Assembly: GCF_033170385.1 (NCBI RefSeq)
Contig: NZ_CP126170.1
Coordinates: forward strand, 2,938,001 to 3,002,000
Source of the DNA: Xanthomonas rydalmerensis
Lineage (GTDB): Bacteria; Pseudomonadota; Gammaproteobacteria; Xanthomonadales; Xanthomonadaceae
DNA: 64,000 nt
Direction of reading: 5' to 3'
Positions 1 to 37,423 of this stretch are shown in pieces (the stretch's first letter is position 1; every line of letters starts with the position of its first letter). Below the pieces are notes generated by a model. It did not search any database. It was not told the DNA's origin and worked only from the letters and a program-made list of their open reading frames with translations. The translations under genes were made by a program, and so were the position numbers.

Positions 1-351
1 AGCAGCGGCGGCGTACCCGAACTGGTGCTGGGGCAACTGCGCATCAACCTGGCCGGGCGCCGGGTGTGGCTGCAGGACCAGCCGCTGGACCTGACCGCGC
101 GCGAGTTCGCGCTGTTGGAGACGCTCTTGCTGCGCAGCGGGCGCGTGGTCAGCCGCAGCCAGCTGACCGAAGCGCTGTGCGATTGGCAACACGAAATCAC
201 CGACAACGGCCTGGACATCTCCATGCACCGCCTGCGGCGCAAGCTGCACGGCGCCGGCGTCGGTATCCGGACCATCCGCGGCCTGGGCTACCTGCTGGAG
301 GAGTCGCGCGCCGCCTCGCCGGCCGCCGACCACGCACAGATCCCGCAGTGA
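1..351 (+). CDS. OmpR/PhoB-family response regulator, C-terminal part (5' end outside window)
   Basis: The frame is open from base 1, so the gene starts upstream; only the linker and the winged-helix DNA-binding domain are present. The visible protein has the OmpR wing features: LTAREFALLETLLLRSGRVV (helix 1-2), then the recognition helix segment around DISMHRLRRKLHG, and the closing IRTIRGLGYLL hairpin. The receiver domain with its phospho-accepting Asp is not in the window. The stop overlaps the GTG start of the histidine kinase by 4 bases, so the pair is translationally coupled and almost certainly cognate. Because the kinase is followed without gaps by efflux genes, this regulator probably controls the whole operon. 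QseB/TctD-like subfamily membership is a guess from the partner kinase. Confidence 0.93.
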   Translation, partial: SSGGVPELVLGQLRINLAGRRVWLQDQPLDLTAREFALLETLLLRSGRVVSRSQLTEALCDWQHEITDNGLDISMHRLRRKLHGAGVGIRTIRGLGYLLEESRAASPAADHAQIPQ

Positions 352-1769: not shown

Positions 1770-3190
1770 GCCGGATCCTTATCCGCCCGCTCACGATGCT
1801 GACGCTGGCCGCCGCGCTCGCGCTGGGCGGCTGTGCCAGCAAGCCCATCCCCGACCTGCGCCAGCCGTCGATGCCCGCACAGTGGAGCAGCGCGACGCCG
1901 CAGGCGGCCGCGCCACGCCCGCCGGGCAACGCCTGGTGGCAGGACTTCCACGATCCGCAACTCGACGCGCTGGTCGCGCAGGCGTTGCGCGATGATCTCG
2001 AGGTGGGCCAGGCGCTGGCGCGGCTGCGCGCGGCGCGGCGGCTGGATGCGGTCGCCGACGCGACCCTGCGGCCGCAGCTGCGCGCGCGCACCGAGGACCC
2101 GATCGACCCCGACGCCAGCGCCTCGTTCCTGGTGGTCGGCGTCGATTCGGAATGGGAGCTGCCGCTGTTCGGCCGCGGCGAAGCCACCAACCGGGTGGCA
2201 CGCGGCGACCTGCAGAGCGCCCAGGCCAACCTGGCGCAGGTGCGCGCGGCGACCATCTCCGACGTGACGCACAACTGGATCGACCTGCGCCACGCGCAGC
2301 AGGCCGAACGCCTGCTGCAGGACATCGCCAGCGCGCGCCAGCGCCAGGCCAGCCTGCAGCAGACCCTGGTCGATCTGCACCTGGCCGCACCGGCCACCGC
2401 CGCGCAGGCGCAGGCCGCGGCGCTGCAGGCGCAGACCGCGGCGAACGAACCGCGCGACGCCGCAGCCGCGGCCGCGCGGCGCCTGGCGGTGCTGCTGGGC
2501 CGCGACACGCCCGACCCGGCGTGGAGCACGGCCGCGGCCGCCACCGCGCCGGGGCAATTGCAGATCGCCGCGGTCGACAGCGTGCCGGCCGACCTGCTGC
2601 GCCGGCGCCCGGACATCGCCGCGCACGAGGCCGAGGTGATCAGCGCCGCCGGCGCGCTGGGCATCGCCCGCGCCGACCGCTACGGCAGCATCGGCCTGGG
2701 CGGCGCGATCCGCTGGTCGACCAGCCTGCTGACCCATCGCCGCACCGCCACCCATGGCATCGCCTCGTTCGGCCCGGTGATCGACATCCCCCTGTTCGAC
2801 TGGGGCATCCGCCAGGCCAAGGCGAAGGCGCGCGGCGACCTGCTGGAAGCGGCCACCCTGGCCTACCGGCAGAGCGTGCTGGACGCGGTCAACGAGGTCG
2901 AGAACGCCCTGACCACGCTGGAACAGCAGCGGCGCAACACCGAGACCCAGCAGCAGGTGCTGCAGGCACAGCAGCAGGCCAGCGACGTCGCCCAGCAGCG
3001 CCGGCGGCTGGGCCTGGGCAGCGACCTGGACGTGGCCACGCAGCAGGCCGCACGCGACCAGGCCGCGCTGGAGCTGCTGGAAGCGCAGCGCCAGCGCGAC
3101 CTGGCCTACGTCGCCCTGCACACCGCGCTGGGCAGCGCCACCGCGCCGATTCCCGACACCGGCAACGAACACCAAGGCGCGCAGCCCTGA
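1766..3190 (+). CDS. NodT/OprM-family outer membrane efflux lipoprotein
   Basis: Outer-membrane channel of an RND- or ABC-type tripartite exporter, 474 residues, the usual size for the family. The start is the ATG at 1766 overlapping the kinase stop. A lipoprotein signal peptide ends at LALGGC with lipidated Cys23. Two repeats of the outer membrane efflux family follow: Gln/Ala-rich alpha-helical barrel stretches (near residues 65-100 and 340-460) alternating with beta segments. The typical NodT block DLLRRRPDI is present near residue 275, and IDIPLFDWGIRQAKAKA marks the second repeat. It sits between its probable regulators and an ABC permease/ATPase/membrane-fusion set, with overlapping stops and starts, so it is the dedicated outer-membrane exit for this exporter. 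Confidence 0.93.
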   Translation: MSRILIRPLTMLTLAAALALGGCASKPIPDLRQPSMPAQWSSATPQAAAPRPPGNAWWQDFHDPQLDALVAQALRDDLEVGQALARLRAARRLDAVADATLRPQLRARTEDPIDPDASASFLVVGVDSEWELPLFGRGEATNRVARGDLQSAQANLAQVRAATISDVTHNWIDLRHAQQAERLLQDIASARQRQASLQQTLVDLHLAAPATAAQAQAAALQAQTAANEPRDAAAAAARRLAVLLGRDTPDPAWSTAAAATAPGQLQIAAVDSVPADLLRRRPDIAAHEAEVISAAGALGIARADRYGSIGLGGAIRWSTSLLTHRRTATHGIASFGPVIDIPLFDWGIRQAKAKARGDLLEAATLAYRQSVLDAVNEVENALTTLEQQRRNTETQQQVLQAQQQASDVAQQRRRLGLGSDLDVATQQAARDQAALELLEAQRQRDLAYVALHTALGSATAPIPDTGNEHQGAQP

Positions 3191-4323
3191 TGGTCGCACT
3201 GGCCCGCCAGACCCTGCGCTACGAGTGGCGCCGCTTCCTGCCGGTGGTGGTGTCGGTGGGCTTCGCCAGCCTGTTGCTGCTGCTGCAGACCGCGCTGGTG
3301 CTGGGCATCTTCGGCAGCGCCAGCGTCTATGTCTCCGGCTCCGACGCCGACCTGTGGCTGGGCTATCCCGGCACGCAGAGCGTGGACCAGGGCCGCGCCA
3401 TCGATCCGGACGCGGCCGCGCCGCTGTACCTGGATCCGCGGGTGGCGCAGGTCGAGCCATTCATCTGGTTCGACGGCGACTGGCGCGGCCCCGGCGACAC
3501 CGGTGCGGTGTCGGTCTACATCTCCGGCATCGACACCCGCGACGGCGGACTGATGTTCTCCCGCCTGCTCAGCCCCGCCCTGCGTGTGGGCCTGCGCGAA
3601 CCGGACACCGTGGTGGTGGACCGCGCGGAACTGGACAAGCTCGGCGTCGGCGTCGGCAGCAGCGCGCGCATCAACGGCCACCGCGTGCGGGTGATCGGGG
3701 TCGGCCGTGGCCTGCGCGCGCTCGGCGGGGTCAACGTGCTGGCGTCGCTGGACACCGCGCGCGCGCTCAACAGCGACACCGCACACCCGGATTGGCCCAC
3801 CTACATGGTGGCCAAGCTGCGCCCCGGCACCGACCCGCAGGCGGTGGCGCAGGCGATCGACAGCGCGGTCGCGCGGCCGCGCGTGGAAGCCTGGAGCGCC
3901 GACGATTTCGCCCGGCGCAGCATCCTGTTCTGGATGTTCGACACCGGCGCCGGCTCCGGCGTGCTGTTCCTCGGCGGCATCGTGCTGCTGGTCGGCGTGG
4001 CCATCACCAGCCAGACATTGCTCGGCACGGTGCTCGGCGCGGCGCGCGAGTACGCCACGCTCAACGCGCTGGGCGTGAGCATGCGCAACCTGCGCTGGGT
4101 GGTGCTGGAACAGGCGGCCTGGGTCGGCGCGCTGGGCCTGATCGGCGCCAGCGCCCTGGGCGCGGCGCTGGTCGCGCTGGCCCGTGCGCACGACGTGCCG
4201 GTGGCGTTCAACGCCAGCGGCTGGGGCCTGTGCGTGTGCGCGGTGATGCTGCTGACCGTGGTCTCGGCCCTGGCCGCGCTGCGCGGATTGCGTCGCGCCG
4301 ATCCGGCGTTGCTGCTGCGATGA
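3190..4323 (+). CDS. FtsX-like ABC transporter permease (DevC/MacB-core type)
   Basis: Inner-membrane permease of 377 residues starting at the ATG at 3190 that shares one base with the upstream stop (TGATG). Membrane helix 1 is near residues 16-43. A periplasmic domain follows to about residue 255, then three C-terminal helices carry the FtsX core (near 258-285, 305-335 and 345-368). The four-helix layout with a large periplasmic loop is that of DevC and MacB-type mechanotransmission permeases, which pair with a separate ATPase and a membrane-fusion protein. The ATPase is encoded immediately downstream with an ATGA overlap. The substrate is unknown: DevBCA exports glycolipid and MacAB exports macrolides, peptides or haem precursors, and nothing in the sequence decides between these. 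Confidence 0.92.
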   Translation: MVALARQTLRYEWRRFLPVVVSVGFASLLLLLQTALVLGIFGSASVYVSGSDADLWLGYPGTQSVDQGRAIDPDAAAPLYLDPRVAQVEPFIWFDGDWRGPGDTGAVSVYISGIDTRDGGLMFSRLLSPALRVGLREPDTVVVDRAELDKLGVGVGSSARINGHRVRVIGVGRGLRALGGVNVLASLDTARALNSDTAHPDWPTYMVAKLRPGTDPQAVAQAIDSAVARPRVEAWSADDFARRSILFWMFDTGAGSGVLFLGGIVLLVGVAITSQTLLGTVLGAAREYATLNALGVSMRNLRWVVLEQAAWVGALGLIGASALGAALVALARAHDVPVAFNASGWGLCVCAVMLLTVVSALAALRGLRRADPALLLR

Positions 4324-5084
4324 GCCGCATCGTCGCCCCCGCCGCACTGCACCCGGCCGCTGCCACCCTCAGCGGCAGCGGGCTGTGCAAGAGCTTCGTC
4401 TCCGGCAGCCTGCGCACGCCGGTGCTGCGCGACGTGGAACTGCAGGTGTGGCCGGGCGAGCTGACCCTGATCTCCGGCCCGTCCGGCTGCGGCAAGAGCA
4501 CGCTGCTGTCGATCCTCAGCGGCCTGCAGCGCGCCGACGCGGGTCGCGTGCTGGCGCTGGGCGAGGAGCTGGGCGCGCTCGGCGCCACCGCGCTGGAGCA
4601 GTTCCGCCTGCGCCACACCGGCTTCATCTTCCAGGGCTTCAACCTGTTCCCGGCGCTGTGCGCGCTGGACCAGGTGCGGCTGCCGCTGCAGTACATGGGT
4701 CTGGCCCCGGCCGAGGTGCGCAGCCGCGCCGAAGAGGCGCTGGCCGAGGTCGGCATCGCCCACCGCCAGCACCTGCGCCCGTCCGAACTGTCCGGCGGCG
4801 AGAAGCAGCGCGTGGCGATCGCCCGCGCGCTGGCCAAGCACCCCGCGCTGCTGTTCGCCGACGAACCGACCAGCGCGCTGGACGCCGGCAATGGCCAGAT
4901 CGTGATCGACCTGTTGCATCGCATCGCGCGCCGCCACAACACCATGGTGCTGTGCGTGAGCCACGACCCGCGCCTGATCCGCCACGCCGACCGCGTACTG
5001 TCGATGGAGGACGGCCGCATCCACGACGACCGCCGCGTCATCGCGCCGCCCTCGCCCCTGCCCTCACGGAATCCCGCACCATGA
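4320..5084 (+). CDS. ABC transporter ATP-binding protein (LolD/MacB/DevA class)
   Basis: Cytoplasmic ATPase of 254 residues that energises the adjacent permease. It has Walker A (GPSGCGKST, residues 53-61), a Q-loop (FIFQGFNLFP), the signature LSGGEKQRVAIARAL near residue 158, Walker B (ALLFADEPTSALD) and the switch His in CVSHDPRL. The spacing and the GFxFQxFNL Q-loop region are characteristic of the MacB/LolD/FtsE subfamily that works with FtsX-like permeases. The ATG start overlaps the permease stop, and the stop overlaps the next gene. The short Pro/Arg-rich tail (IAPPSPLPSRNPAP) has no recognisable function. Confidence 0.94.
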   Translation: MSRIVAPAALHPAAATLSGSGLCKSFVSGSLRTPVLRDVELQVWPGELTLISGPSGCGKSTLLSILSGLQRADAGRVLALGEELGALGATALEQFRLRHTGFIFQGFNLFPALCALDQVRLPLQYMGLAPAEVRSRAEEALAEVGIAHRQHLRPSELSGGEKQRVAIARALAKHPALLFADEPTSALDAGNGQIVIDLLHRIARRHNTMVLCVSHDPRLIRHADRVLSMEDGRIHDDRRVIAPPSPLPSRNPAP

Positions 5085-5980
5085 AAGCGTTCGCCGCCGC
5101 GCCCCTGCTGAGCCTGCTACTGGCCGCATGCGCGCCATCGGACCGTACGCCGGCCCCGGCGCCGGCCGCCACCCCGGCCTACCTGGCAGTGGCGCGCGGC
5201 CGCATCGACGTGGAAGGCGGCGTACTCAAGCTCGGCCTGCCGGTCGCCGCGACCCTGCGCGAGGTGCCGGTGCACGAGGGCGACGCGGTGCAGAAAGGCG
5301 CCTTGCTGATCGCCGGCGACGATCGCGCCGCCGCGGTCGACCTGGACATCGCCCGCACCCGCGCGCAGGCCGCCGCCGCCCACCTGAAGCAGTTGCAGCA
5401 ACGCCTGCAAAGCGCCCAGCAGAAGCAGCGGCGGCTGGCCGAGGCCGCGCGCCTGGGCGCCGGCGACGGGCAGACCGCCGACGACGCCAGCGACGCGGTG
5501 CAGAGCCTGGTCGACGCGCTGGACACCGCGCGCAGCGACGCGGCCCTGGCCGAGGCGCAGGTGCGCGCGACCGAGTTGCAGCGCGCGCAGTATCGTCTGC
5601 AGGCGCCGGTCGCCGGTCGCGTGCTGCAGCTGTCGGCCGCGGTCGGCGCGCGCAGCGAGGCCAACACGCCGCTGCTGACCCTGCTGCCGGACGCACCGCG
5701 TCTGGTCCGCGCCGAATTGAACGAAAGCTATGCCGGCAGCGTCACCCCGGGCATGGCCGCCGAGGTGATCAGCGACGACGGCCGCCAGACCGTGCTCGGC
5801 GAGGCGGTGGTGCGCTGGCTGGCGCCGGCCTACGGCCCCACCCAGCTGCACGACGACGCCACGCCCGCCGGCAACGACCGCAGCGTGGCCTGCGTGCTAG
5901 CCTTCACTCAGCCCTCGACCCTGCGCCTGGGCCAGCGCGTGCTGGTGCGCTTCCGCAACCCGGCCGCAGCCAAGCGCTGA
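5081..5980 (+). CDS. HlyD/MacA/DevB-like membrane fusion lipoprotein
   Basis: Periplasmic adaptor of 299 residues linking the ABC permease to the NodT-type channel. The signal peptide ends in a lipobox (LLLAAC, Cys17), so it is anchored as an inner-membrane lipoprotein rather than by a helix. The biotinyl-lipoyl half-motifs are visible: VPVHEGDAVQKGALLIAGDD before, and YRLQAPVAGRVLQLSAAVG after, an Ala/Gln-rich coiled-coil hairpin (near residues 88-165). A beta-barrel domain follows. It is short for the family, with a small hairpin and no long membrane-proximal domain, similar in layout to DevB. It is the last gene of the operon; the next gene starts 92 bases downstream. Confidence 0.9.
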   Translation: MKAFAAAPLLSLLLAACAPSDRTPAPAPAATPAYLAVARGRIDVEGGVLKLGLPVAATLREVPVHEGDAVQKGALLIAGDDRAAAVDLDIARTRAQAAAAHLKQLQQRLQSAQQKQRRLAEAARLGAGDGQTADDASDAVQSLVDALDTARSDAALAEAQVRATELQRAQYRLQAPVAGRVLQLSAAVGARSEANTPLLTLLPDAPRLVRAELNESYAGSVTPGMAAEVISDDGRQTVLGEAVVRWLAPAYGPTQLHDDATPAGNDRSVACVLAFTQPSTLRLGQRVLVRFRNPAAAKR

Positions 5981-6072: not shown

Positions 6073-6900
6073 ATGATCGAATCTGCCGAGTTCCACTTCG
6101 AAGGCGGCCGCAACGGCGTGCTGCTGATCCATGGCCTGACCGGCACGCCCAGCGAGATGCGCCTGCTCGGCAAGAGCCTGAACCGCGAAGGCTTCAGCGT
6201 GCACGGCGTGCAGCTGGCCGGCCATTGCGGCGACGAGGACGACCTGCTGGCCACCAGTTGGCGCGACTGGTACGCCAGCGTCGAGGCCGCCGCCGAGCGC
6301 ATGCGTCCGCAGGTCGACCGGCTGTTCGTGGCCGGGCTGTCGATGGGCGCGCTGCTGGCGCTGCGCCTGGCGCAGGAGCGTCCGCAGTGGGTGGACGGGG
6401 TCGGCGTGCTCGGCGCCACCTTCCGCTACGACGGCTGGAACATCCCCAAGCGCGCGCGGCTGGCGTTCCTGCTGCCGTGGTTCAAGCGCCTGGGCATCGG
6501 CAAGCGCCGCATGTTCCTGGAGGAGCCGCCGTACGGCTTGCGCGACGAGCGCATCCGCGCCCAGGTCAGCAGCGCCATGCTCGGCGGCGACAGCAGCGCC
6601 GCCGGCCTGCCCGGCAACCCCTGGCACGCCCTGGCCGAGATGTACCTGCTCTCGCGCGACGTGCGCCGCAACCTGCCCAAGGTCGTCGCGCCATGCCTGG
6701 TCGCGCACGCGGCCGAGGACGACATCGCCGACCTGCGCAACGCGCGGCTGGTGATCGCCAACGTCTCCGGGCCGACCGAGCTGCTGCTGCTGCACGACAG
6801 CTACCACATGATCACCCTGGACCGCGAACGGCGCGTGCTCGGCGCGCGCCTGGCGCAGTTCTTCGCGGCCCTGACCACCCCGCAGCAGGCGGCCGCCTGA
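6073..6900 (+). CDS. Alpha/beta hydrolase, carboxylesterase-like
   Basis: Soluble hydrolase of 275 residues, first gene of a four-gene block. The oxyanion segment LIHGLTGTP (near 17-25) and nucleophile elbow GLSMGA (Ser90) are intact. The acid is probably in AHAAEDDIAD and the base His in HDSYHMITLD near the C-terminus. This is the arrangement of Est30-type carboxylesterases and monoacylglycerol-lipase-like enzymes that act on acyl esters or thioesters. No signal peptide is seen. The stop and the next start share one base (TGATG), so it is co-translated with two small transporters and a DegT-like aminotransferase. In this context it could release or trim an acyl product made by the nearby ACP/ketosynthase, but that is inference. 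Confidence 0.85.
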   Translation: MIESAEFHFEGGRNGVLLIHGLTGTPSEMRLLGKSLNREGFSVHGVQLAGHCGDEDDLLATSWRDWYASVEAAAERMRPQVDRLFVAGLSMGALLALRLAQERPQWVDGVGVLGATFRYDGWNIPKRARLAFLLPWFKRLGIGKRRMFLEEPPYGLRDERIRAQVSSAMLGGDSSAAGLPGNPWHALAEMYLLSRDVRRNLPKVVAPCLVAHAAEDDIADLRNARLVIANVSGPTELLLLHDSYHMITLDRERRVLGARLAQFFAALTTPQQAAA

Positions 6901-7262
6901 TGGCGATGAGCGGCTCGGTGGTGGCGATCTGGTTGACGACGGTGGTCCTCGACACCGCCGGCCAGTTGGCCTTCAAGTACGTCGCCAGCCGACCGCAAGG
7001 TGCCGGGGTGACGCGCTGGCAGAACATGGCCCGGCAGCCATATTTGTGGTTCGGCGTGGCCTGCTACGTGCTCGAATTCCTCGCCTGGACCGCGTTCCTG
7101 TCGCTGGTGCCGCTGGGCCGCGGCGTGCTGCTGGGCTCGATCAACATCGTGGCGATCATGCTGGCCGGGCGCTGGCTGTTCGGCGAACGCCTGGGGCGCA
7201 TGCAGGTGGCCGGCATCTGCCTGGTCAGCGCCGGCGTGGCCGTGGTGGGGTTGGGCTCATGA
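6900..7262 (+). CDS. Half-size EamA/DMT-family membrane protein, first of a pair
   Basis: A 120-residue membrane protein with four predicted helices (near residues 5-22, 44-66, 72-94 and 98-118), matching one half of an EamA transporter. Such four-helix proteins act as pairs; the next gene encodes a second, distinct half overlapping by four bases. The closest functional model is ArnE/ArnF, the pair that flips undecaprenyl-phosphate-aminoarabinose across the inner membrane, and it also resembles small multidrug resistance subunits. The resemblance is of size, topology and pairing, not proven homology to ArnE. Neighbouring aminotransferase and acyl genes suggest that an amino-bearing lipid or metabolite is the cargo. 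Confidence 0.8.
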   Translation: MAMSGSVVAIWLTTVVLDTAGQLAFKYVASRPQGAGVTRWQNMARQPYLWFGVACYVLEFLAWTAFLSLVPLGRGVLLGSINIVAIMLAGRWLFGERLGRMQVAGICLVSAGVAVVGLGS

Positions 7263-7657
7263 GCCGGCCGCCGCTGCATCGCTACGCGGTGGGCTTCGCC
7301 CTGCTGCTGAGCTTCGACACGCTGGCCCAGATCGGCTTCAAGCTGGCCGGCACCCATGCCTTCCCGCCGCAGGCCGAACTGGCCTGGGTACTGCGTTTGC
7401 TCGGCAGCCCATGGCTGTACGCCGCGCTGCTCGGCTACATCGGCGCGTTCTTCACCTGGATGAAGCTGCTCGAGCACGCGCCGATCGGCCCGGCCTTCGC
7501 CGCCTCGCACCTGGAGGTGGTCAGCGTGATGCTGCTGTCGGCGTGGTGGTTCAACGAACACATCGGCGTCCTGCAGGCGCTGGGCGCGGCGCTGATCGTC
7601 GGCGGCATCGTCTGCCTGGCGATGGGCGAACGCGCGGATCCTGCCGATGCGCATTGA
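7259..7657 (+). CDS. Half-size EamA/DMT-family membrane protein, second of a pair
   Basis: A 132-residue four-helix membrane protein (helices near residues 9-28, 47-70, 76-98 and 103-124) whose ATG overlaps the upstream stop. It is not a copy of the preceding gene: the sequences differ widely, as in heterodimeric ArnE/ArnF or EbrA/EbrB pairs. Features include a charged/aromatic helix end (SFDTLAQIGFKLAG) that lines up with DTAGQLAFKYVAS in its partner, the conserved N-terminal signature of this family, and a conserved ASHLEVVSVMLLSAWWFNE segment in helix 3. The last 11 bases overlap the aminotransferase gene, so translation is coupled. Confidence 0.8.
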   Translation: MSRPPLHRYAVGFALLLSFDTLAQIGFKLAGTHAFPPQAELAWVLRLLGSPWLYAALLGYIGAFFTWMKLLEHAPIGPAFAASHLEVVSVMLLSAWWFNEHIGVLQALGAALIVGGIVCLAMGERADPADAH

Positions 7658-8900
7658 GATCCCGCCGACCGCCGGCCTGCCGCTGCAGTGGCGCGACCTG
7701 TGGCCTGGCCGTGCGCGCACCCGCCTGGCCAGCGCGGTCGGCCTGCCGCAGGCGCTGCTGACCTGCTCCGGCACTGCGGCGCTGATCGTGGCCCTGCGCA
7801 CCCTGACTGCGGCCAACCGGCGCCGGCAGGTGCTGGTGTCGGCCTATACCTGCCCGCTGGTGGCGCTGGCGGTGGCGCACTGCGGCCTGCAACTGGTGCT
7901 GTGCGATCTGCTGCCCGGCTCGCTGGAACTGGACCCGGTGCAGCTGGCGCAACGCTGCGGCAGCGACACCCTGGCGATCATCGCCACCCACTTGGGCGGG
8001 CGCCTGACCGACCTTGCGCCGCTGCGCCGTGCCGCCGAAAGCTGCGGCGCGCTGCTGATCGAGGACGCCGCGCAGGCGCTGGGCGGCGTGCACCCCGACG
8101 GCCGCCCGGCCGGCCTGGGCGGCGACATCGGCTTCTGCAGCCTGGCCGCCGGCAAGGGCCTGACCCTCTACGAAGGCGGGCTGTTGATGTCGCGGCATGC
8201 GCCGCTGCAGCGCAGCCTGGCCGACACCGCCGCCCGCCTGGGCCAGCGCGACTGGCGCTGGGAACTGCGCCGCAGCCTGGAACTGCTCGGCTACGCCGCG
8301 CTGTACCGGCCGCAGCCGCTGCGCTGGGCCTATGGCGCGCCGGTACGCCGCGCGCTGCGCCGCGGCGACCGCGTCGGCGCGGCCGGCGACCGCTTCGGCA
8401 CGGCCATCGCCCAACACGCGGTCGGCGCCTGGCGCGAAGCGGTGGGCGTACGCGCCAGCGCGCGCTGGCCGGCATTCCTTGCGCAGATTCGCGAGCAGGG
8501 CCGACGCCGCAGCGCACGCCTGGCCAGCATCCCCGGCCTGAGCGTGATCGCCGATACCCCGGGTGCTCAGGGCAGCTGGCCGATCCTGATGGTGCTGCTG
8601 CCCGACGCGGCCGCACGCGAATCGGTGCTGGCTACGCTGTGGCCGCGCGGGCTCGGCGTGGCGGTGCCGTTCGTGCATGCCCTGCCCGGCTACGACTACC
8701 TGCACGGCATCGTCGAGCGCACGCCGATGCCCAACGCCAGCGACTTCGCCGCACGCTGCCTGAGCATCAGCAACAGCCCCTGGCTGGACGAGGCGCGCTT
8801 CGAGACCATCGTGGCCACGCTGCAGGCGGCCTGCGCCGGCGCGGTCGGGCCGGCGCCGCTGGATGTCGATCTGGTGCACGCCGCTGCGCCGAGCGCCTGA
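7647..8900 (+). CDS. DegT/DnrJ/EryC1-like PLP-dependent aminotransferase
   Basis: A 417-residue fold-type I PLP enzyme. The N-terminal substrate/PLP segment reads LLTCSGTAALIVALRTL, and the cofactor-binding Asp lies in LLIEDAAQALGG. The presumed Schiff-base lysine is in SLAAGKGLTLYEGG, which aligns with the DegT pattern K-x-x-x-x-GEGG, although the first Gly of the pattern is replaced by Tyr. Typical DegT enzymes aminate keto-sugars (ArnB, DesI); others are amino-acid or dehydratase variants, so the substrate is open. The gene begins inside the second EamA gene and ends the four-gene block. About 135 bases downstream is a palindromic repeat that separates it from the convergent ureohydrolase gene. 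Confidence 0.82.
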   Translation: MRIEIPPTAGLPLQWRDLWPGRARTRLASAVGLPQALLTCSGTAALIVALRTLTAANRRRQVLVSAYTCPLVALAVAHCGLQLVLCDLLPGSLELDPVQLAQRCGSDTLAIIATHLGGRLTDLAPLRRAAESCGALLIEDAAQALGGVHPDGRPAGLGGDIGFCSLAAGKGLTLYEGGLLMSRHAPLQRSLADTAARLGQRDWRWELRRSLELLGYAALYRPQPLRWAYGAPVRRALRRGDRVGAAGDRFGTAIAQHAVGAWREAVGVRASARWPAFLAQIREQGRRRSARLASIPGLSVIADTPGAQGSWPILMVLLPDAAARESVLATLWPRGLGVAVPFVHALPGYDYLHGIVERTPMPNASDFAARCLSISNSPWLDEARFETIVATLQAACAGAVGPAPLDVDLVHAAAPSA

Positions 8901-8967
8901 CTGGGCGACGGGCGGCTTCGCCAGCGTCGCGATGAAAATGCGCCTCGCGTAACGACGGGAAGAATCC

Positions 8968-9034
8968 TGCAGGAGCGGCTTCAGCCGCGAGGGCGTTACC
9001 GGTAATGCCTCTCGCGGCTGAAGCCGCTCCTACA
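8968..9034. repeat. REP-like inverted repeat (GGAGCGGCTTCAGCCGCGA type)
   Basis: Two near-perfect 27-base arms (8968-8995 and 9007-9034) face each other around a short centre, and each arm is itself a small palindrome (GGCTTCAGCC). The same unit occurs three times at 54222-54328. It lies between convergent genes and could fold into a long hairpin that terminates transcription from both sides. Such repeats are typical of xanthomonad intergenic DNA. Confidence 0.9.
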
Positions 9035-9051
9035 GACGGACAGGGCCCGCG

Positions 9052-9930
9052 TTAACCGACGCTGGCCGCGTCCAGCGCCGCCAGCAGCCGCAGGTTCAAC
9101 GCATGCTGCTGCGCCTGCCAGGCCGACAGATCGGCCGGCGACGGTTCCGGCTGCGCATCCAGCGATGCCAACGTGCGCTTCCACCATTGCGGATAGTGGG
9201 CCAGCGAGACCTCGCCAGTGATGTCGCTGCCGCACACCTGCCCGCGCAGCGCGTCGATCGCCTGCAGCAACTGCGGCACGCGCAGTTGGCCCTGGTCCCA
9301 GTTGGTGCGCACGTCCTGCGGATCCAGCACGTCCTTGTCCAGCGACAGATAGGTCGGCATCGGCGTGCGCCGCAGGTGCTCCACGAACGCATCGCTCAGT
9401 TCGCTCACGCTGGCGAAGCCGCGCACCGCCTGGCCCAGGCCCAGCCGCCGCGCCCAGCCCACGTCCACGCCGCTGCACCAGTAGCGCAGCTTGCCGCGGT
9501 ACAGCGGCAGCAGATGGTTCTCCCAGGCATGGCCGGGGCCGACGTCGCCGGAGGTGATGCCGGCCACCTCGACCTGCGCCACCTGCGGCAGCGCGGCGAT
9601 GCGCCGCACCCACGAGCCGCAATGTACCCCGAACGGGAAGCGCATGTTGTCCGGATGGTTGTCGAACACCACCACCCGCAACGGTGCCTGCGCACGCTCC
9701 GCCAGGCGCACGATCAGCGGCAGGCTCAGGTGATGGAAATCGCCGCTGCCCAGCAGCACGGTGCCGTACTGCGTCGGCAGTGCCTGCTCCAGCGCCGCGC
9801 CGAAGCGACGCAGCCGCGCCATCGAGCAGGCGAAGCGCAGGCCGTCGCACCAGTCACGCAGCGGCAGACGCACGGCGTCGGGCACTGCGCCCAGCGAATC
9901 GTCGAGATCGAGCAGGACCGGAGTGCGCAT
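9052..9930 (-). CDS. Ureohydrolase-fold (arginase/agmatinase-like) protein
   Basis: A 292-residue protein with the metal-binding motifs of the arginase family in order: GSGDFHHLS (for GGDHS), VVFDNHPDNM (for DAHxD), SLDKDVLDP (for SxDxDxxDP) and GSDITGE at the end. The two-Mn chemistry is therefore probably kept, while the substrate-facing residues differ from arginase and agmatinase. The family hydrolyses guanidino or amide C-N bonds, and also includes formiminoglutamase and acetylpolyamine deacetylases by fold. The start is the ATG at 9930, placed one base after the stop of the upstream GNAT gene, so the two are one transcript. In the ACP/aminotransferase neighbourhood it may remove an amidino or acyl group; this is inference. 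Confidence 0.82.
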   Translation of the reverse strand: MRTPVLLDLDDSLGAVPDAVRLPLRDWCDGLRFACSMARLRRFGAALEQALPTQYGTVLLGSGDFHHLSLPLIVRLAERAQAPLRVVVFDNHPDNMRFPFGVHCGSWVRRIAALPQVAQVEVAGITSGDVGPGHAWENHLLPLYRGKLRYWCSGVDVGWARRLGLGQAVRGFASVSELSDAFVEHLRRTPMPTYLSLDKDVLDPQDVRTNWDQGQLRVPQLLQAIDALRGQVCGSDITGEVSLAHYPQWWKRTLASLDAQPEPSPADLSAWQAQQHALNLRLLAALDAASVG

Positions 9931-9931
9931 C

Positions 9932-10999
9932 TCAGTCCTCCTCGGCGGCATCGGCCGCCGGCCCGACGTCGTCGGATTCGAACAGCGGCCGCAGCCGGCG
10001 CAGCACGGCGCGCAGCAGCGGATTGCGCAGGTACACCGCATGCCAGGTGTAGGTGAAGCTGGCGCCGAGCTGGGCCTTCACTTCCGGATCGGTCCAGCCG
10101 GCGACGTAGGCGGTCAGGCCGTGGCGGCAGGCGTAATCGAGATTCTCGATCCAGCTCAGCGCGTACAGGTTGTGGTCGCGCGCATCCGGGTAATGCAGGC
10201 CGATGTACTTGTCCAGCAGCCGGCCCTGGTGCACATAGCACAGGTTCCAGCCGATGATGCGGCCCTGGTGGCGGTACACGAACACCTGCCCACCGGACGC
10301 GGCGTCGGTCAGCAGCGCATCGAAGAACGGCTCGGTGAGCAGGTCGAAATGGATCTCGCTTTGCGCATACACCTCCTGGTACAGCGCATAGCAGTGCGCG
10401 CGCAGCGCCGAGTCGGCGAAGGCCGGGCCGGTCGGCAGCACCTCGATCTCCAGGTCGGCGCGCGAGCGCAGCTTGCGGCGGATGTTGCGCCGGCGCCCAC
10501 GCGAGAGCCGCGCCAGGTACTCGTCGGTGGAGGCGAAATCGATCGGCACCCAGGCCAGCGCCTGCCCGCGCAACAGCACATAGCCATTGCGCTCGCAGGC
10601 GTCCAGGAAGATCTGCGACCAGGCGTTGTCGGCCTCATCCAGCAGCGGCGAGCGCTGCGGCACGTCCTTGACGATCATCAGCGCGCGGCGCCGGCCCAGT
10701 TGCGTGCGCCACTGCCGCGGCAACTGGGCCGGGTCGGCCGCGCGCGGCAGCCAGGCGTATTCGCTGACGGTGCTGCCGACGAAGCTGGTGCGCGGCCGCA
10801 GCAGGCGTTGCCACAGGCGCTGCAACGGTAGCCGCGCCACGCGGTCGCGCAGCGCCGGCTCGGCCGTGGTCAGCAGGTCGAAATCGGCCTCGAAGGCCGG
10901 CACCCCGTGCTCCAGGGGCTGGATCAGGAAACCGGACGGCGGGTGCTGCAGGAACTGCCGCTGCAAGGCCTGCGGTTCGAGTTGGTTGACGAAAGGCAT
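9932..10999 (-). CDS. GNAT / FemAB-like N-acyltransferase
   Basis: A 355-residue protein whose C-terminal half carries a GNAT-like acyltransferase domain: LSRGRRRNIRRKLRSRADLE, then HCYALYQEVY, GGQVFVYRHQGRIIGWNLCYVHQGRLLDKYIGL and HNLYALSWIENLDYACRHGL. This is the arrangement of FemAB-like and DUF482-type proteins that transfer aminoacyl or acyl groups to amines. The N-terminal half has no motif I recognise. The start ATG at 10999 faces the acyl carrier protein gene on the other strand across 112 bases, which must hold both promoters. The stop is one base from the ureohydrolase start. A carrier-protein-bound acyl group as donor would fit the neighbourhood, but is not shown by sequence. Confidence 0.8.
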   Translation of the reverse strand: MPFVNQLEPQALQRQFLQHPPSGFLIQPLEHGVPAFEADFDLLTTAEPALRDRVARLPLQRLWQRLLRPRTSFVGSTVSEYAWLPRAADPAQLPRQWRTQLGRRRALMIVKDVPQRSPLLDEADNAWSQIFLDACERNGYVLLRGQALAWVPIDFASTDEYLARLSRGRRRNIRRKLRSRADLEIEVLPTGPAFADSALRAHCYALYQEVYAQSEIHFDLLTEPFFDALLTDAASGGQVFVYRHQGRIIGWNLCYVHQGRLLDKYIGLHYPDARDHNLYALSWIENLDYACRHGLTAYVAGWTDPEVKAQLGASFTYTWHAVYLRNPLLRAVLRRLRPLFESDDVGPAADAAEED

Positions 11000-11111
11000 C
11001 TGCAAGATTGATCGTCTAGCGTGGAGAATGGATGCTGCGGCCCAGGCCGCAGCGTGCGATCCACCGGCGGCGGGTGCCGCACGGTGGCCCTTCATTTCGC
11101 GGAGCACTGCC

Positions 11112-11387
11112 ATGACCCCGTCCATCGAGTCGCAAATCCACAGCATCGTCACCAAGCATGGCGAGATCGACCCGGCGCGCCTGACCCCCGATGCCAAGCT
11201 GCAGGACCTGGGCGTGGATTCGCTCGAGGCCATCGAAATCCTGTTCGACATCGAAGAGCACTTCGACATCACCTTCCCGCAGCGCGACCCGAACCTGGAC
11301 GACGGCTCGCTCGGCAAGCTGGTGCAGGCGGTCGAGGACGCGCTGGCGGCCAAGGCGGCGGCCGGCGCGGCGCAACCGGCGCACTGA
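11112..11387 (+). CDS. Acyl carrier protein
   Basis: A 91-residue carrier protein with the phosphopantetheine site LGVDSLEAIEI; the modified serine is Ser37. It is acidic around helix 2 (FDIEEHFDITF) like primary-metabolism ACPs, but it is clearly a second, specialised ACP because it is not in a fab operon. A Shine-Dalgarno GGAG lies 7 bases before the ATG. The C-terminal Ala-rich tail is dispensable-looking. A ketosynthase gene follows after six bases, so this is its cognate carrier. The extended loop QRDPNLDDGSLG before helix 4 is unusual for fatty-acid ACPs. Confidence 0.92.
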   Translation: MTPSIESQIHSIVTKHGEIDPARLTPDAKLQDLGVDSLEAIEILFDIEEHFDITFPQRDPNLDDGSLGKLVQAVEDALAAKAAAGAAQPAH

Positions 11388-11393
11388 CGCACC

Positions 11394-12635
11394 ATGGGCG
11401 CCTCCCCGCACGTGCGGCGCGTGGTCGTCACCGGCACGGGCGCGGTCAGCGCGCTCGGCCTCGGCGCCGAGGCGCTGTGGAGCGCGATGCGCGAGGGCCG
11501 CAGCGGCATCGCCGCCCTGCCCTCGCCCGATCCGCTCAGCACCCTGAAGATGCGCCTGGCCGCGACCCTGCCCGGGTTCGCGCCCGACGCCACGCAGACC
11601 GGCGGCATCGCCCCCGGCCAGCTCGATCGCATGACCCAGATGGCCCTGGTCGCCGCCCAGGAAGCCATCGCCCAGTCCGGACTGCTGCCGCGCGACGATG
11701 CCACGCTCGGCGCGCGCTGCGCGGTGGTGGTCGGTACCGGCGTCGGCGCCGAACTCAGCCGCGACGAGCAATCGCGCCGGCTGTACCGCGACCAGGCCGA
11801 ACGCCTGCATCCGCTGACCATCGTGCGCAGCATGAACAATGCCGCGGCCAGCCAGATCAGCATCGCCTTCGGCCTGCGCGGCCCGGCCTTCGCCGTGTCC
11901 AGCGCCTGCGCCTCGGCCAACCACGCCTTCGCCCAGGCCGCGCTGATGGTCCGCCATGGCCTGGCCGACGTCGCCATCGCCGGCGGCAGCGAAGCGTGCC
12001 TGAGCCTGCCGCTGATCCGCGCCTGGGAAGCGATGCGGGTGGTCAGCGACGACACCTGCCGGCCGTTCTGCGCACAGCGCAGCGGCCTGGTGCTGGGCGA
12101 AGGCGCCGGGATGTTCGTGCTGGAAAGCGCCGAACACGCGGCCGCCCGCGGCGCGCTGCCGCTGGCGGAACTGGCGGGATTCGGCATGAGTTCCGATGCC
12201 GGCGACATCGTCGCGCCCAGCATCGACGGCGCCGCCACGGCGATGCGCCTGGCGCTGCAGGATGCCGGCCTGGCCCCGGAACAGATCGACTACATCAACG
12301 CCCACGGCACCGGCACGCAGGCCAACGACCGCTGCGAAACCAAGGCGCTGCGTCAGGTGTTCGGTGCGCATGCCGAGGCGCTGGCGGTCAGCTCGACCAA
12401 GGCGGTGCACGGCCATGCGCTCGGTGCGGCCGGCGCGCTGGAACTGGTGGCGGCGATCGGCGCGCTGCGCGAGCAGGTGGTCCCGCCCACGGCCAACTTC
12501 CTCGATGCCGATCCGGAATGCGACCTGGACTACGTGCCCAACCGGGCGCGCGCCCGCCACGTGCAGGCGGTGCTGAGCAATTCCTTCGCCTTCGGCGGAC
12601 TCAATGCGGTGATCGCGCTGCGCGCGGCGGGCTGA
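11394..12635 (+). CDS. Beta-ketoacyl-ACP synthase, FabF-like
   Basis: A 413-residue condensing enzyme that joins an acyl starter to malonyl-ACP. The catalytic triad is intact: Cys172 in SSACASANHAF, His304 in NAHGTGTQANDRCE and His339 in STKAVHGHALGAAGALE. Length and motifs match FabF/KAS II, so it is an elongating synthase and not a chain-length factor. It is encoded with its own ACP but without a ketoreductase, dehydratase or malonyltransferase nearby, so it must borrow these or yield an unreduced beta-ketoacyl-ACP. A keto product would be a natural substrate for the class III aminotransferase convergent to it (12701-14173). That link is my inference from gene order. Confidence 0.92.
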   Translation: MGASPHVRRVVVTGTGAVSALGLGAEALWSAMREGRSGIAALPSPDPLSTLKMRLAATLPGFAPDATQTGGIAPGQLDRMTQMALVAAQEAIAQSGLLPRDDATLGARCAVVVGTGVGAELSRDEQSRRLYRDQAERLHPLTIVRSMNNAAASQISIAFGLRGPAFAVSSACASANHAFAQAALMVRHGLADVAIAGGSEACLSLPLIRAWEAMRVVSDDTCRPFCAQRSGLVLGEGAGMFVLESAEHAAARGALPLAELAGFGMSSDAGDIVAPSIDGAATAMRLALQDAGLAPEQIDYINAHGTGTQANDRCETKALRQVFGAHAEALAVSSTKAVHGHALGAAGALELVAAIGALREQVVPPTANFLDADPECDLDYVPNRARARHVQAVLSNSFAFGGLNAVIALRAAG

Positions 12636-12700
12636 AGCGCCCGCCGCCGCGGCGAACGGCGGGAGGCAACGCGAACCGCGCGCGTCGTCTCCCGCCCGGC

Positions 12701-14173
12701 TCATGCGACCTGCTTGGCGCGGGTCAGCAACTGGTCCAGCAAGGACAGGCCCAGGTCGATCTCTTCGTGGCTGATGTGCAGCGACGGCGCCAGCGTGATC
12801 ACGTTCTTGTAGTAACCGCCCACGTCCAGGATCAGGCCGATGCGCTTGCCGTTGTGGCGCAGCTCGCCTTCCAGGCCCATGTCGACCATGGTGTCGAGCA
12901 GCTTGCGGTTCGGCGTGAAGCCGTCCGCCTGGCAGATTTCCGCGCGCAGGGCCAGGCCCAGGCCATCGACGTCGCCGATTTCCGGGTGACGCTTCTGCAG
13001 GTCGCGCAGTCCGTCCAGGAAGTGCGCGCCCTTGGCCATCACCATCGACTCGTAGTCGGTCTCGGCCAGCATGCGCATGGTTTCCAGGCCGACCGCGGTG
13101 CCCAGCGGGTTGGAGGCGAAGGTGGAGTGGGTCGAGCCCGGCGGGAACACGGTCGGGTTGATCAGCTCCTCGCGCGCCCAGATGCCGGCCAGCGGATTGA
13201 GGCCGTTGGTCAGCGCCTTGCCGAACACCAGCACGTCCGGGGTCACGCCGAAATGCTCGATCGCCCACAGCTTGCCGGTGCGGAAGAAGCCCATCTGGAT
13301 TTCGTCGACCACCATCAGGATGCCGTACTTGTCCAGCACCCGCTTCAGGCCGGTGAAGAAGTTCGGCGGCGGGATCACGTAGCCGCCGGTGCCCTGGATC
13401 GGCTCGACGTAGAACGCCGCGTACTCGCACTGCCCGGCCTTGGGATCCCACACGCCGTTGTACTCGGTCTCGAACAGGCGCTCGAACTTGGCCACGCACT
13501 GCTCGCCGTACTCTTCCTTGGACATGCCCTTGGGGCCGCGGAAGTGGTACGGGAATTCGATGAACTGGGCGCGGTCGAAATGACCGAAGCGACGGCGATA
13601 GCGGTACGACGAGGTGATCGCCGAGGCGCCGAGGGTACGGCCGTGGTAGCCGCCTTCGAAGGCGAACACCAGGCTCTTGCCGGCGCTGGCGTTGCGCACG
13701 ATCTTCAGCGAGTCTTCCACCGACTGCGCGCCACCGACGTTGAAGTGCACGCGGCCCTTGCGGCCCCACTTGCGCTCGGCGTCGACCGCGATGGTCTTGG
13801 CCAATTCGATCTTGGTCGGGTGCAGGTACTGGCTGGCGACCTGCGGCAGCGTCTCGATCTGGCGGGTCAGTGCCTGGTTCAGGCGCGGATTGGCGTAGCC
13901 GAAGTTGACCGCCGAGTACCACATCTGCAGGTCCAGGTACGGCACTTCTTCGGTGTCGTACAGGTAGCTGCCGTCGCAGCGGCCGAAGATGCGCGGCGGC
14001 TCGCTGTAGTGCACGGTGTCGCCGTAGGAGCAGTACTGGGACTCGTCGGCCAGCATCTGCGCATCGCTCAGCGCGCGATGGTGGTCTGCGCCGGTGCGCA
14101 GCAGCGCCTCCGGATCGGGCGCGGCATCGCCATGCAGCGGTGCGAGCGAGGAAAGCGGGACATTCCGGTTCAT
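12701..14173 (-). CDS. Class III PLP-dependent aminotransferase
   Basis: A 490-residue omega-aminotransferase-type enzyme. It shows FNVGGAQSVEDSLKIVRN (PLP phosphate region), YHGRTLGA, the PLP-ring Asp in LMVVDEIQMGFFRTG and the Schiff-base lysine Lys319 in VFGKALTNGLNPLAG. It is annotated loosely as aspartate aminotransferase family in such genomes, but class III enzymes usually act on distal amines, diamines or beta-amino/keto acids. The N-terminal 60 residues before the core are longer than usual. It starts five bases after the phosphatase stop on the same strand, so they form an operon, and it converges on the ketosynthase. A role in aminating a keto-acyl or aldehyde intermediate fits the cluster. 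Confidence 0.9.
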   Translation of the reverse strand: MNRNVPLSSLAPLHGDAAPDPEALLRTGADHHRALSDAQMLADESQYCSYGDTVHYSEPPRIFGRCDGSYLYDTEEVPYLDLQMWYSAVNFGYANPRLNQALTRQIETLPQVASQYLHPTKIELAKTIAVDAERKWGRKGRVHFNVGGAQSVEDSLKIVRNASAGKSLVFAFEGGYHGRTLGASAITSSYRYRRRFGHFDRAQFIEFPYHFRGPKGMSKEEYGEQCVAKFERLFETEYNGVWDPKAGQCEYAAFYVEPIQGTGGYVIPPPNFFTGLKRVLDKYGILMVVDEIQMGFFRTGKLWAIEHFGVTPDVLVFGKALTNGLNPLAGIWAREELINPTVFPPGSTHSTFASNPLGTAVGLETMRMLAETDYESMVMAKGAHFLDGLRDLQKRHPEIGDVDGLGLALRAEICQADGFTPNRKLLDTMVDMGLEGELRHNGKRIGLILDVGGYYKNVITLAPSLHISHEEIDLGLSLLDQLLTRAKQVA

Positions 14174-14178
14174 CGGGA

Positions 14179-14871
14179 TCAGGCTCGTTGGGTGAGAGGA
14201 AGCGGGAAGGACACGGCGGCCGTCGCCGGCTCGGCCAACTCGGGCAGCAGGGCGATGGCGTCGTCGAAACCGGTGATCGCGCAATGGGCGATCCCGTTGG
14301 CGCGGCAATGGCGCAGCAGACCGTCCTTGGCGAACACCAGGTCGGCCTTGCCAGCCAGGCAGAAATCGGAGCGGCCGTCGCCGATCAGCAAGGTGGCGCG
14401 CTCGGGCGGCTGTTGCGCCATCACCGCGCACTTGCAGGTGCCGCTGGGGCAGTCCGGCTGCGCATGCGGCGAGGCCATGCGCCACTGCCCGGCGTCGGTA
14501 CGCAGCAGGCGGTTGGCGATGATCGGCAGATGGTGCAGGCCGTGGCGGGCCAGGATCCGGGCGATGCCGTAGTCCAGGCCGTCGCTGACGATGCTCAGCG
14601 GGATGCCCAGGCGCTCGGCCAGCGCGACGAAGCGCACGAAGGCCGGATCGATCCGCACCGCATCCAGCACCCGGTGTAGCGCATCGACGTCGCCGTCGAG
14701 CAGCGCGACCTGCTTGCTCATGCACTCGCGGGCCCCGATCCGACCGGCGACCCAGTCGTCCTCCAGCTCCCGCCAACCGGGGCTCCCGAGGTGTTCGAGC
14801 AGGCTGTCGGTCACGTCCTGCAGGGACACGGTACCGTCAAAATCGCAAAGGATGTTCCATTGGGCGCGCAA
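14179..14871 (-). CDS. HAD-IB family phosphatase (MtnX/SerB-like)
   Basis: A phosphomonoesterase of about 230 residues. HAD motif I is CDFDGTVSLQD (nucleophile Asp10 and acid/base Asp12 in this numbering), motif II is SIVSDGLDYG, the Lys is near FAKDG, and motif IV is LLIGDGRSDFCLAG. A CxxGxCKC cluster (CPSGTCKC) in the middle may bind metal. I chose the TTG at 14871 because a GGAG lies seven bases upstream and the conserved core begins four residues later; the ATG at 14958 would add 29 low-complexity residues. The closest relatives act on phosphoserine, diketo-methylthio-phosphopentene or phosphocholine-like headgroups. Its pairing with an aminotransferase suggests dephosphorylation of an amino-phosphate such as a phosphoserine-derived group. 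Confidence 0.85.
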   Translation of the reverse strand: MRAQWNILCDFDGTVSLQDVTDSLLEHLGSPGWRELEDDWVAGRIGARECMSKQVALLDGDVDALHRVLDAVRIDPAFVRFVALAERLGIPLSIVSDGLDYGIARILARHGLHHLPIIANRLLRTDAGQWRMASPHAQPDCPSGTCKCAVMAQQPPERATLLIGDGRSDFCLAGKADLVFAKDGLLRHCRANGIAHCAITGFDDAIALLPELAEPATAAVSFPLPLTQRA

Positions 14872-15559
14872 GGTGGCTCTCCGGCTGATGGGGGCAGAGC
14901 CTAGGCACGCTGTCTTTCGCACTCCTTTCGGCGAGGTGAAAGAAAGCGGAGCGTTCACATTGCACGTGGTAACGCCTACCCGCGCGTCGCGCTCCCGTCA
15001 GGGAGTGATGCATTGCACAGCCCAAGTCCATCACGATCCGGGTCGCTGTCCTGCCAGACGGCGGGATCGCCCGGGGCCGCCGCGAGCACATGCCCGTCCG
15101 CATTTACCGATATCCGCCGCGCGCATCCACCACCTCCCTGCTTGGTCTGCCGCCATGCCGGAACCAGGGTCGAGACAACCCACGCGGCCGTTACGGCAGC
15201 AGGCTTGTGCCGGCATTGGCCTATCCGCGGCGCGCGAAGGTGGGAGTGCAACACCTGACCTCGCGACCAGTGCGCCGAAGGCGGCGGTCTTCAGGAAATG
15301 ATGGCGTTGCAGTATTGGATGACTGCGACACTGAAGTCTTCAAAGTCGATTGTTGAAAGCAGCGGATTCCTCGTCGACTCCTGGGATGGCTGTGCGCCAG
15401 GATCACGGCGGCCGGACTCAAGCGCAGCGCCCTCCCCTCTAGGCTGCATCTCACATCCCGCGATCTCGATAGGCCACCCGACTGAGGCCGCATTGGGTGT
15501 CGGCCTCCATCGGTCGTTCCAGAGCCGCCTGATGTTGATGAAGGTTGATCTTTCGCGCA
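14872..15559. other. Gene-poor stretch upstream of the rrf2-like gene
   Basis: I see no convincing gene in these 688 bases. Base composition drifts from the surrounding coding pattern. One reading frame on the minus strand (about 15290-15420) has a balanced composition ending SVAVIQYCNAIIS and might be the C-terminal stub of a lost gene, but I cannot identify it. Confidence 0.5.
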
Positions 15560-29613: not shown

Positions 29614-29700
29614 TGGTGCCCGGAGCCGGAATCGAACCGGCATGGGGTCGCCCCCGGCGGATTTTAAGTCCGATGCGTCTACCAGTTTCGCCATCCGGGC
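29614..29700 (-). tRNA. tRNA-Leu (anticodon TAA)
   Basis: The minus strand gives a complete class II tRNA of 87 bases including CCA. The acceptor stem pairs GCCCGGA with TCCGGGC, and the anticodon loop is CTTAAAA with TAA in the centre. It has a variable arm, and its T arm contains GGTTCGATTCC. The island with the TrbI relic starts less than 80 bases beyond its 3' end, a usual integration site. Confidence 0.96.
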
Positions 29701-29826
29701 CTGGTGGCGCGTAGCGTGCCTGATCGGGCGGCGCTTGTGAACCGCAGGGCGCTGCCGACCCGGCAGACGCGCCGAACAGAGACACCACATACCGGCATCG
29801 GCAGGCTTGAGTACCACCACCGAAAA

Positions 29827-29858
29827 GCCCCGGCGCCGCCGCCACGGCGGCACCGGGG
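29827..29858 (-). terminator. Rho-independent terminator downstream of hemN
   Basis: A 13-base-pair GC stem (29828-29840 with 29846-29858, one wobble pair) is followed on the minus strand by CTTTTCGG. It lies 31 bases past the hemN stop. Confidence 0.65.
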
Positions 29859-29889
29859 ATGCCAACGGAAAGCGAGAAGCGCGGCGCGC

Positions 29890-31296: not shown

Positions 31297-31330
31297 GGAC
31301 CGAGCATGCGCGGCACCGGGCGCGGCCGCC

Positions 31331-31344
31331 TTGACCTGGATCAA
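31331..31344. promoter_or_regulatory. FNR/Anr-type box upstream of hemN
   Basis: TTGACctggATCAA matches the FNR consensus TTGAT-N4-ATCAA with one change. It lies 35 bases upstream of the hemN start and overlaps the last codon of the haemoglobin gene. Confidence 0.7.
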
Positions 31345-33676: not shown

Positions 33677-33677
33677 C

Positions 33678-37347: not shown

Positions 37348-37423
<76 letters not shown>

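Follow-up and report, generated by a model that had tools for sequence, protein, structure and literature searches.

What product is served by a bacterial gene cluster that combines an acyl carrier protein, two aminotransferases, a hydrolase, a phosphatase and a pair of small transporters, and under whose control does it stand? The question is raised by a stretch of 64,000 nucleotides from Xanthomonas rydalmerensis (contig NZ_CP126170.1, positions 2,938,001 to 3,002,000 of the forward strand; in its full length referred to below as the window), for which a first-pass annotation, made from the sequence alone, had described a ten-gene accessory cluster starting at position 6073 and had proposed an undescribed amine-lipid pathway provided with a flippase. 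All ten open reading frames (ORFs) were found where they had been placed, and Pfam and NCBIfam agree with the domain families named for their products. The gene set stands, but not its start: six genes of the same strand lie directly upstream (window 1-5980), and the full cluster comprises 16 genes, a two-component system and an exporter with its channel being added to the ten. With moderate confidence we regard it as a regulated modular pathway for an amine-bearing lipid that is placed in the outer cell envelope, with a PmrAB/QseBC-like two-component regulator of its own. In outline the earlier proposal remains the best reading and is strengthened by comparative evidence, although it gave the ketosynthase (KS) and the acyl carrier protein (ACP) a central place that they do not hold, and missed the regulator and the exporter.

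Co-inheritance of the gene set

Whether the genes form a unit was checked, as the first-pass annotation had recommended, by their co-occurrence in 198 genomes of the window's family, using as markers the strongly conserved class III aminotransferase AT3 (12701..14173, minus strand; E<=1e-100), the alpha/beta hydrolase est (6073..6900, plus; E<=1e-60) and the FemAB-like transferase (9932..10999, minus; E<=1e-10). AT3 and est were each detected in 25 genomes, the two lists being identical, and the FemAB-like gene in 24, all of them among these 25 and with G002 as the only one missing. Within the window's own genus one genome of nine (G186) lacks all three genes, and within g15 all three are present in G173 and none in G015; this patchy distribution inside genera implies that the set comes and goes as one. 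Joint presence of the three markers is far beyond chance, and the gene set is gained and lost together. None of the ten genes was found at E<=1e-6 in any of 20 control stretches of 20 kb, taken at arbitrary round coordinates from nine cluster-bearing genomes. Larger stretches were mapped for 22 of the 25 cluster genomes, the other three (G058, G085 and G153) being represented by 4-kb loci.

Inside this unit the modules differ in constancy. Among the mapped genomes the arginase-fold gene (9052..9930, minus) is present in 21 (not in G002), KS and ACP occur at the locus in 16, and the gene of the DegT-family aminotransferase (7647..8900, plus) in 15, not being found in G143, G121, G142, G025, G068, G095 and G002, where some contigs are short. 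AT3 and its near-constant partner, the MtnX-like HAD-IB phosphatase (HAD; 14179..14871, minus), lie apart from the rest of the cluster in G025, G068 and G095; in G142 AT3 sits on a separate contig next to a KS end, which is likely a contig break. In the g29 genomes, RR and kinase (the response regulator and sensor kinase discussed below), est, the EamA pair, DegT, HAD, AT3, FemAB and arginase genes are all co-directional. The window's ACP (11112..11387, plus; PP-binding) and its FabF-like KS (11394..12635, plus; ketoacyl-synt) had been taken for the heart of the pathway, and this role is ruled out by six AT3-bearing genomes (G124, G179, G071, G098, G043 and G050) in which no KS orthologue was found genome-wide, the best matches being 41-42% identical, whereas the orthologues of G046 and G173 reach 60-64%. 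Since est, AT3, HAD, FemAB and arginase genes are retained in these KS-less genomes, formation of the amine cannot depend on a dedicated KS, and KS-ACP is a dispensable accessory module. Independent occurrence of the blocks had been named beforehand as the observation that would overturn the idea of one pathway; it is borne out in so far as KS-ACP, DegT, FemAB-arginase and the exporter are each dispensable and AT3-HAD lies elsewhere in three genomes, but AT3 accompanies est in all 25.

Distant relatives and plasmid copies

Outside the family, and with the window's own genome counted in both samples, AT3 was detected in 6 of 369 genomes at the class level (E<=1e-100) and in 20 of 299 at the phylum level (E<=1e-150). 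When one genome of each species was scanned, 583 tblastn relatives were counted at E<=1e-3, possibly including other class III aminotransferases; the best 80 to a distant AT3 query (57-100% identity) were studied with AT3 as the marker, many of them on contigs assembled from metagenomes, which may be mislabelled. In 74 of these 80 loci HAD is found no more than 1 kb from AT3, and in 76 it is present somewhere at the locus. The remaining members were counted in at least 54 (est), 35 (EamA), 27 (FemAB), 23 (KS), 22 (arginase-fold), 20 (ACP) and 11 (DegT) loci, which are lower bounds given many short contigs and few queries.

These counts bear on a pathway in which AT3 would transaminate the 3-oxoacyl-ACP delivered by the local KS, the resulting beta-amino fatty acyl chain being built into a lipid. 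Beta-amino acyl formation of this sort is performed by iturin-type synthases, and the class III fold of AT3, like the presence of KS and ACP at many of the loci near and far, agrees with it; yet AT3 persists in the six genomes devoid of a KS orthologue, and the near-constancy of HAD stays unexplained unless a housekeeping FabF provides the substrate. We therefore judge a beta-amino acyl product improbable and retain an amine-bearing lipid whose amine arises independently of KS.

The neighbours of the core speak of membranes and of regulation. Clustering of neighbouring genes covered 105 loci (the 80 distant ones, 24 others and the window), with one or a few members of each family identified by Pfam and the rest assumed alike. 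It revealed regulators (a kinase family at 41 loci, OmpR-type at 21, sigma-54 at 20), exporter families (ABC ATPases at 23, FtsX/MacB permeases at 10, TolC-like channels at 10) and genes of lipid or envelope metabolism, namely acyl-AMP ligases (14), glycosyltransferases of the monogalactosyldiacylglycerol type (10), desaturases (10), cyclopropane synthases (9) and MipA (8). The statement that no known lipid gene is present thus holds for the cluster of the window but not elsewhere, since other bacteria have recognisable lipid genes linked to this core. A Legionella locus (L108, 12125-15244, minus) encodes a single protein in which, according to Pfam and NCBIfam, a fatty-acyl-AMP ligase (FAAL), an ACP and the cluster's hydrolase are joined; a protein of similar length, above 1000 aa, at a second locus (L122, 12025-15060, minus) carries the cluster hydrolase at its C-terminus, the domain scan having covered L108 alone. 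At L119 a MaoC dehydratase adjoins the KS.

The core is also carried by plasmids: AT3 was found in 34 of 72,556 plasmid records (E<=1e-100), belonging to Rhizobium (16), Agrobacterium (10), Bartonella (5), Xanthomonas, Sinorhizobium and Phyllobacterium (1 each), and 17 of the 34 are predicted to be conjugative. In Rhizobium acidisoli the order is regulator, kinase, HAD, AT3, arginase, EamA, desaturase, hydrolase, FemAB-like, EamA and cyclopropane synthase, with MipA and DedA/PAP2 adjoining the operon. Both Agrobacterium copies that were read end with a TolC/ABC/HlyD exporter, and in the Bartonella copy AT3 is accompanied by a GNAT gene, no HAD being annotated beside it. In an AT3 tree (FastTree, 106 rows, the row of L061 being disregarded for its wrong reading frame and very long branch) the Bartonella plasmid copy groups, at a local support of 97, with a gammaproteobacterial sequence within the clade of the window's family, a position that suggests horizontal transfer.

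Regulator, exporter and a conserved repeat

Control of the cluster appears to be encoded at its very beginning. The window opens with the C-terminal part of an OmpR-type response regulator (RR; 1..351, plus), whose gene starts about 357 bp before the window, followed by a QseC/PmrB-like sensor histidine kinase (348..1769, plus; 2CSK_N, HisKA and HATPase_c). Over 116 residues the RR is 99% identical to that of X. sacchari R1, where the annotated gene order is the same as in the window except for the unlisted permease, and where AT3 shares 99.2% identity with the window's. Among PDB entries the full-length RR of X. sacchari R1 is closest to BasR/PmrA (E 1.8e-52, the next different protein following at 4.3e-40), and its scores with the PmrA equivalog and TctD models are 223.7 (cut-off 330) and 228.2 (cut-off 337). 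The X. sacchari R1 copy (L148) is located on a 508-kb record labelled plasmid and adjoins hemN; this record may represent either part of the chromosome or a copy on a megaplasmid. RR and/or kinase lie in the same stretch in 20 of the 22 mapped family genomes, the contigs of the remaining two (G143 and G024) being short; in the 20 control stretches a kinase was met once, a regulator twice, an ABC ATPase three times and a TolC-like gene once.

Between the kinase and est, all on the plus strand, are situated a TolC-family outer-membrane channel (2132..3190 for the aligned part, its start being unsettled), a DevC-like ABC permease (3196..4323; FtsX/MacB_PCD), a DevA/LolD-like ABC ATPase (4320..5084; NCBIfam run on the X. 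sacchari copy) and an HlyD-type periplasmic adaptor (5081..5980). DevA and DevC are the nearest models for ATPase and permease, with scores of 220.7 against a cut-off of 295.8 for DevA, 63.3 against 290.35 for DevC and 37.1 against 129 for DevB, which leaves the set short of a DevBCA assignment. DevBCA-HgdD serves as the exporter of heterocyst glycolipids (PMC6161253).

A candidate site for the regulator is found at the opposite end of the cluster, where the direct repeat GAAAG-N6-GAAAG (14914..14929, minus) precedes the assumed TTG start of the phosphatase by about 42 bp. Its 11-bp period is usual for the class of PmrA-type regulators. The repeat is kept in 12 of 19 homologous regions upstream of HAD-AT3, belonging to seven genera (G000, G006, G134, G111, G170, G050, G143, G173, G043, G046, G106 and G024), and in 7 of these 12 it is followed by an exact CTAGGCT. 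In the 5.04 Mb of its own genome the pattern occurs six times, at the same frequency as a control pattern; what lends it weight is therefore its conservation at this site across genera, not rarity. A Gibbs search over 30 regions scored 361.0 against 291.1 and 279.5, and 383.5 against 313.4 and 313.6 (two mononucleotide shuffles per width). A motif common to the RR and FemAB/ACP promoters was sought as well and given up: a clear conserved site is present at the phosphatase promoter only, and kinship alone can outscore shuffles. K. pneumoniae PmrA binds tandem imperfect repeats (PMC3973317). From its sequence and conservation, the repeat is proposed as a candidate regulator site at the HAD-AT3 promoter.

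Several observations weigh against a PmrA-like switch that governs a lipid exported to the surface. The similarities of the EamA halves to ArnE/F and those to DevA, DevB, DevC and PmrA all fall under the curated family cut-offs; the RR linked to the cluster in the g25 genomes shares only some 37% identity with the window's type; and KS-ACP, the most lipid-like genes of the window, are optional. The repeat is absent in G002, G124 (where the position is inside an operon), G121, G095, G025, G068 and G561. A wider regulon was rejected: reading the ORFs by eye showed no recognised envelope gene next to the other five exact copies in the window's own genome, and their frequency is that of a control pattern. 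Finally, the full ABC/HlyD/TolC set accompanies the cluster in only 7 of the 22 mapped family genomes (G000, G006, G134, G170, G143, G173 and G002), so surface export is not universal. In G111 (L033, 4800-5400) the ABC exporter genes are gone and HlyD-like remnants lie between kinase and hydrolase, all ten enzyme, carrier and flippase genes being found; this loss hints, as a natural sign, at dispensability of the exporter.

The same facts bear on the idea that the product is no resident lipid but a secreted small metabolite, an acyl amine or lipo-amino compound acting as signal, surfactant or antibiotic and leaving the cell through the ABC/TolC pump. A tripartite exporter and a regulator do adjoin the genes in the window, in G204, in G561 and in A. 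fabrum, ACP/KS and the FAAL-ACP fusion are akin to the loading devices of natural-product synthesis, and the distribution is patchy and partly plasmid-borne. Against it stand the rarity of the full exporter and its decay in G111 while the enzymes remain, together with desaturase, cyclopropane synthase and MipA neighbours, which indicate membranes. We consider secretion of such a metabolite unlikely and return to a lipid that stays in the envelope.

Enzymes, proposed product and known counterparts

The enzymes have the residues expected of working catalysts, as judged from homologues of the clustered loci fetched for the neighbour analysis, which are not an unbiased sample. Both aminotransferases retain the pyridoxal phosphate (PLP) lysine that had been claimed for them, in 100 of 100 homologues for AT3, where it is K319, and in 25 of 25 for DegT; AT3 scores 256.2 bits with Aminotran_3 (cut-off 30.5), as a class III aminotransferase should. 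The DxD motif of HAD is kept in 85/85 homologues. The KS residues named earlier, C172, H304 and H339, are correct and were found in 37, 36 and 30 of 39 homologues, giving the Cys-His-His set of FabF-type condensing enzymes, and the ACP serine was kept in 19/19 members of the two ACP groups checked. In the arginase-fold protein (Pfam Arginase 35.8 bits, cut-off 22) the residues D90, H92, D94, D198, D200 and H66/H67, which we take to be the metal ligands by arginase motifs, are intact in 40/40 homologues, the DxDxxD motif is followed by a family-specific NWDQG, and matches to agmatinase and arginase are weak. The closest solved structures to est (Hydrolase_4) are monoacylglycerol lipases and Est30-type esterases. 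Its triad S90/D217/H245, assigned here from motif and conservation, keeps D217 and H245 in 69/69 homologues, with Ser 55 times, Cys 13 times and a gap once at the nucleophile position. Such Ser-to-Cys replacement may mark acyl transfer instead of hydrolysis. For the FemAB-like protein (FemAB_like/Acetyltransf_6) no match to sequences of solved structures was found at E<=0.01, and with a wider alignment the best E was 0.016, tRNA-dependent peptide synthases being matched only weakly by the profile. The EamA half-transporters A (6900..7262, plus) and B (7259..7657, plus) are nearest to the ArnE/F models, weakly so: 27.6 and 27.7 bits with ArnF (cut-off 99), 26.9 and 21.0 with ArnE (cut-off 92), which is too low for equivalogs. 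A REP-like inverted repeat was spotted by eye at window 8968-9036, between the convergent DegT and arginase-fold genes, and four minus-strand tRNA genes, two of them tRNA-Gly(gcc), occupy window 29614-40612, a possible integration hotspot.

From these genes, their catalytic residues and linkage, the linked regulator and the conserved site we infer a lipid product, an order of steps, roles for flippase and export, and a benefit. HAD and AT3 together would make a small amino compound, for example an amino alcohol derived from a keto or aldehyde precursor that carries a phosphate, as the near-constancy of the pair suggests conversion of a phosphorylated carbonyl compound to an amine. The FemAB-like enzyme would put an acyl or aminoacyl group on the nitrogen of this compound; est would move or trim ACP-borne acyl chains, given that the FAAL-ACP-hydrolase fusion and the Ser-to-Cys changes suggest acyl transfer or release from ACP; and the arginase-fold enzyme may take off a guanidino, amidino or amide group. 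The EamA pair would then flip the lipid across the inner membrane, and the DevBCA/TolC-like pump, where present, would carry it to the cell surface, with KS-ACP, DegT, desaturase, cyclopropane synthase, MaoC, FAAL and glycosyltransferase as optional tailoring modules. The likely benefit would be an envelope less anionic or tighter under membrane stress, e.g. from cationic peptides. In Acinetobacter aminolipids of the ornithine/lysine kind help colistin tolerance (PMC11828411), which makes a benefit of this sort plausible in principle.

In working principle the nearest relatives are arn, Ols, MprF and DevBCA. The PmrAB-controlled arnBCADTEF system, which decorates lipid A with aminoarabinose, shares with the cluster a PmrA-like regulator, a DegT aminotransferase, a small EamA pair and a presumed cationic change of the envelope, whereas the cluster has a core of HAD and class III aminotransferase, FemAB, arginase-fold, lipase and ACP/KS proteins, and EamA halves under the ArnE/F cut-offs. 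One may then ask if the cluster is a distant arn equivalent, in which DegT and AT3 aminate a lipid-linked sugar that is flipped by EamA and attached to lipopolysaccharide, or modifies a polymer. The best matches of DegT are sugar aminotransferases, and PIG-L or polysaccharide deacetylase genes are neighbours in G002 and L104, in line with the likenesses to arn just listed. However, DegT was not found in 7 of the 22 mapped genomes, the ten genes include no sugar-nucleotide gene and their products no match to ArnT, ArnC or ArnA (the remaining genome was not searched), and the FAAL-ACP-hydrolase fusion suits acyl chemistry better, making such a modification very doubtful. An amine-bearing acyl lipid is preferred, and ornithine/lysine lipid synthesis (OlsBA, OlsF) resembles it in N-acylation of an amine and induction by stress, although the cluster's transferase is FemAB-like and the ten proteins contain no OlsB/OlsA/OlsF-type match (the remaining genome was not searched). 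The MprF/LpiA aminoacyl-phosphatidylglycerol system repeats the theme of a FemABX-type transferase, a flippase and an alpha/beta hydrolase; no match to its LPG_synthase domain was found among the ten proteins, and the cluster's transferase differs in its weak likeness to tRNA-dependent peptide synthases. With DevBCA-HgdD the cluster has in common the nearest ATPase and permease models, the HlyD adaptor and the TolC-family channel, but not scores above the family cut-offs nor the linked biosynthetic set. Accessory clusters of exosortase-A (PEP-CTERM) also hold hydrolases, ACP, acyl-AMP ligase and FemAB proteins, but est matches hydr2_PEP weakly (26.5 bits, cut-off 202.75), and no exosortase match was obtained among the proteins scanned.

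Literature searches aimed at the gene set gave no description of it among the titles and beginnings of abstracts listed, several lists being partial and most subscription journals lying outside their scope. The kind of system, a regulated change of envelope lipids, is known, and the lipid itself may, with fair probability, belong to a new class. More specifically, we tentatively propose a new class of bacterial membrane lipid defined by a route from HAD and class III aminotransferase to an amine-bearing base and served by dedicated acyl or aminoacyl transfer, a flippase, an exporter of the glycolipid type and a PmrA-like switch, spread over Pseudomonadota, Acidobacteriota, Omnitrophota, Nitrospirota and others (for many of which the genes were met in metagenome-assembled contigs only) and mobile on plasmids between plant- and animal-associated bacteria. 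If true, this would be an unrecognised aminolipid or surface-lipid pathway common to several phyla and distinct from the routes of lipid A, ornithine lipids and MprF. Unassigned lipids of environmental lipidomes would gain a genetic handle, and for rhizobia and other host-associated bacteria the pathway may represent a plasmid-borne route to envelope change.

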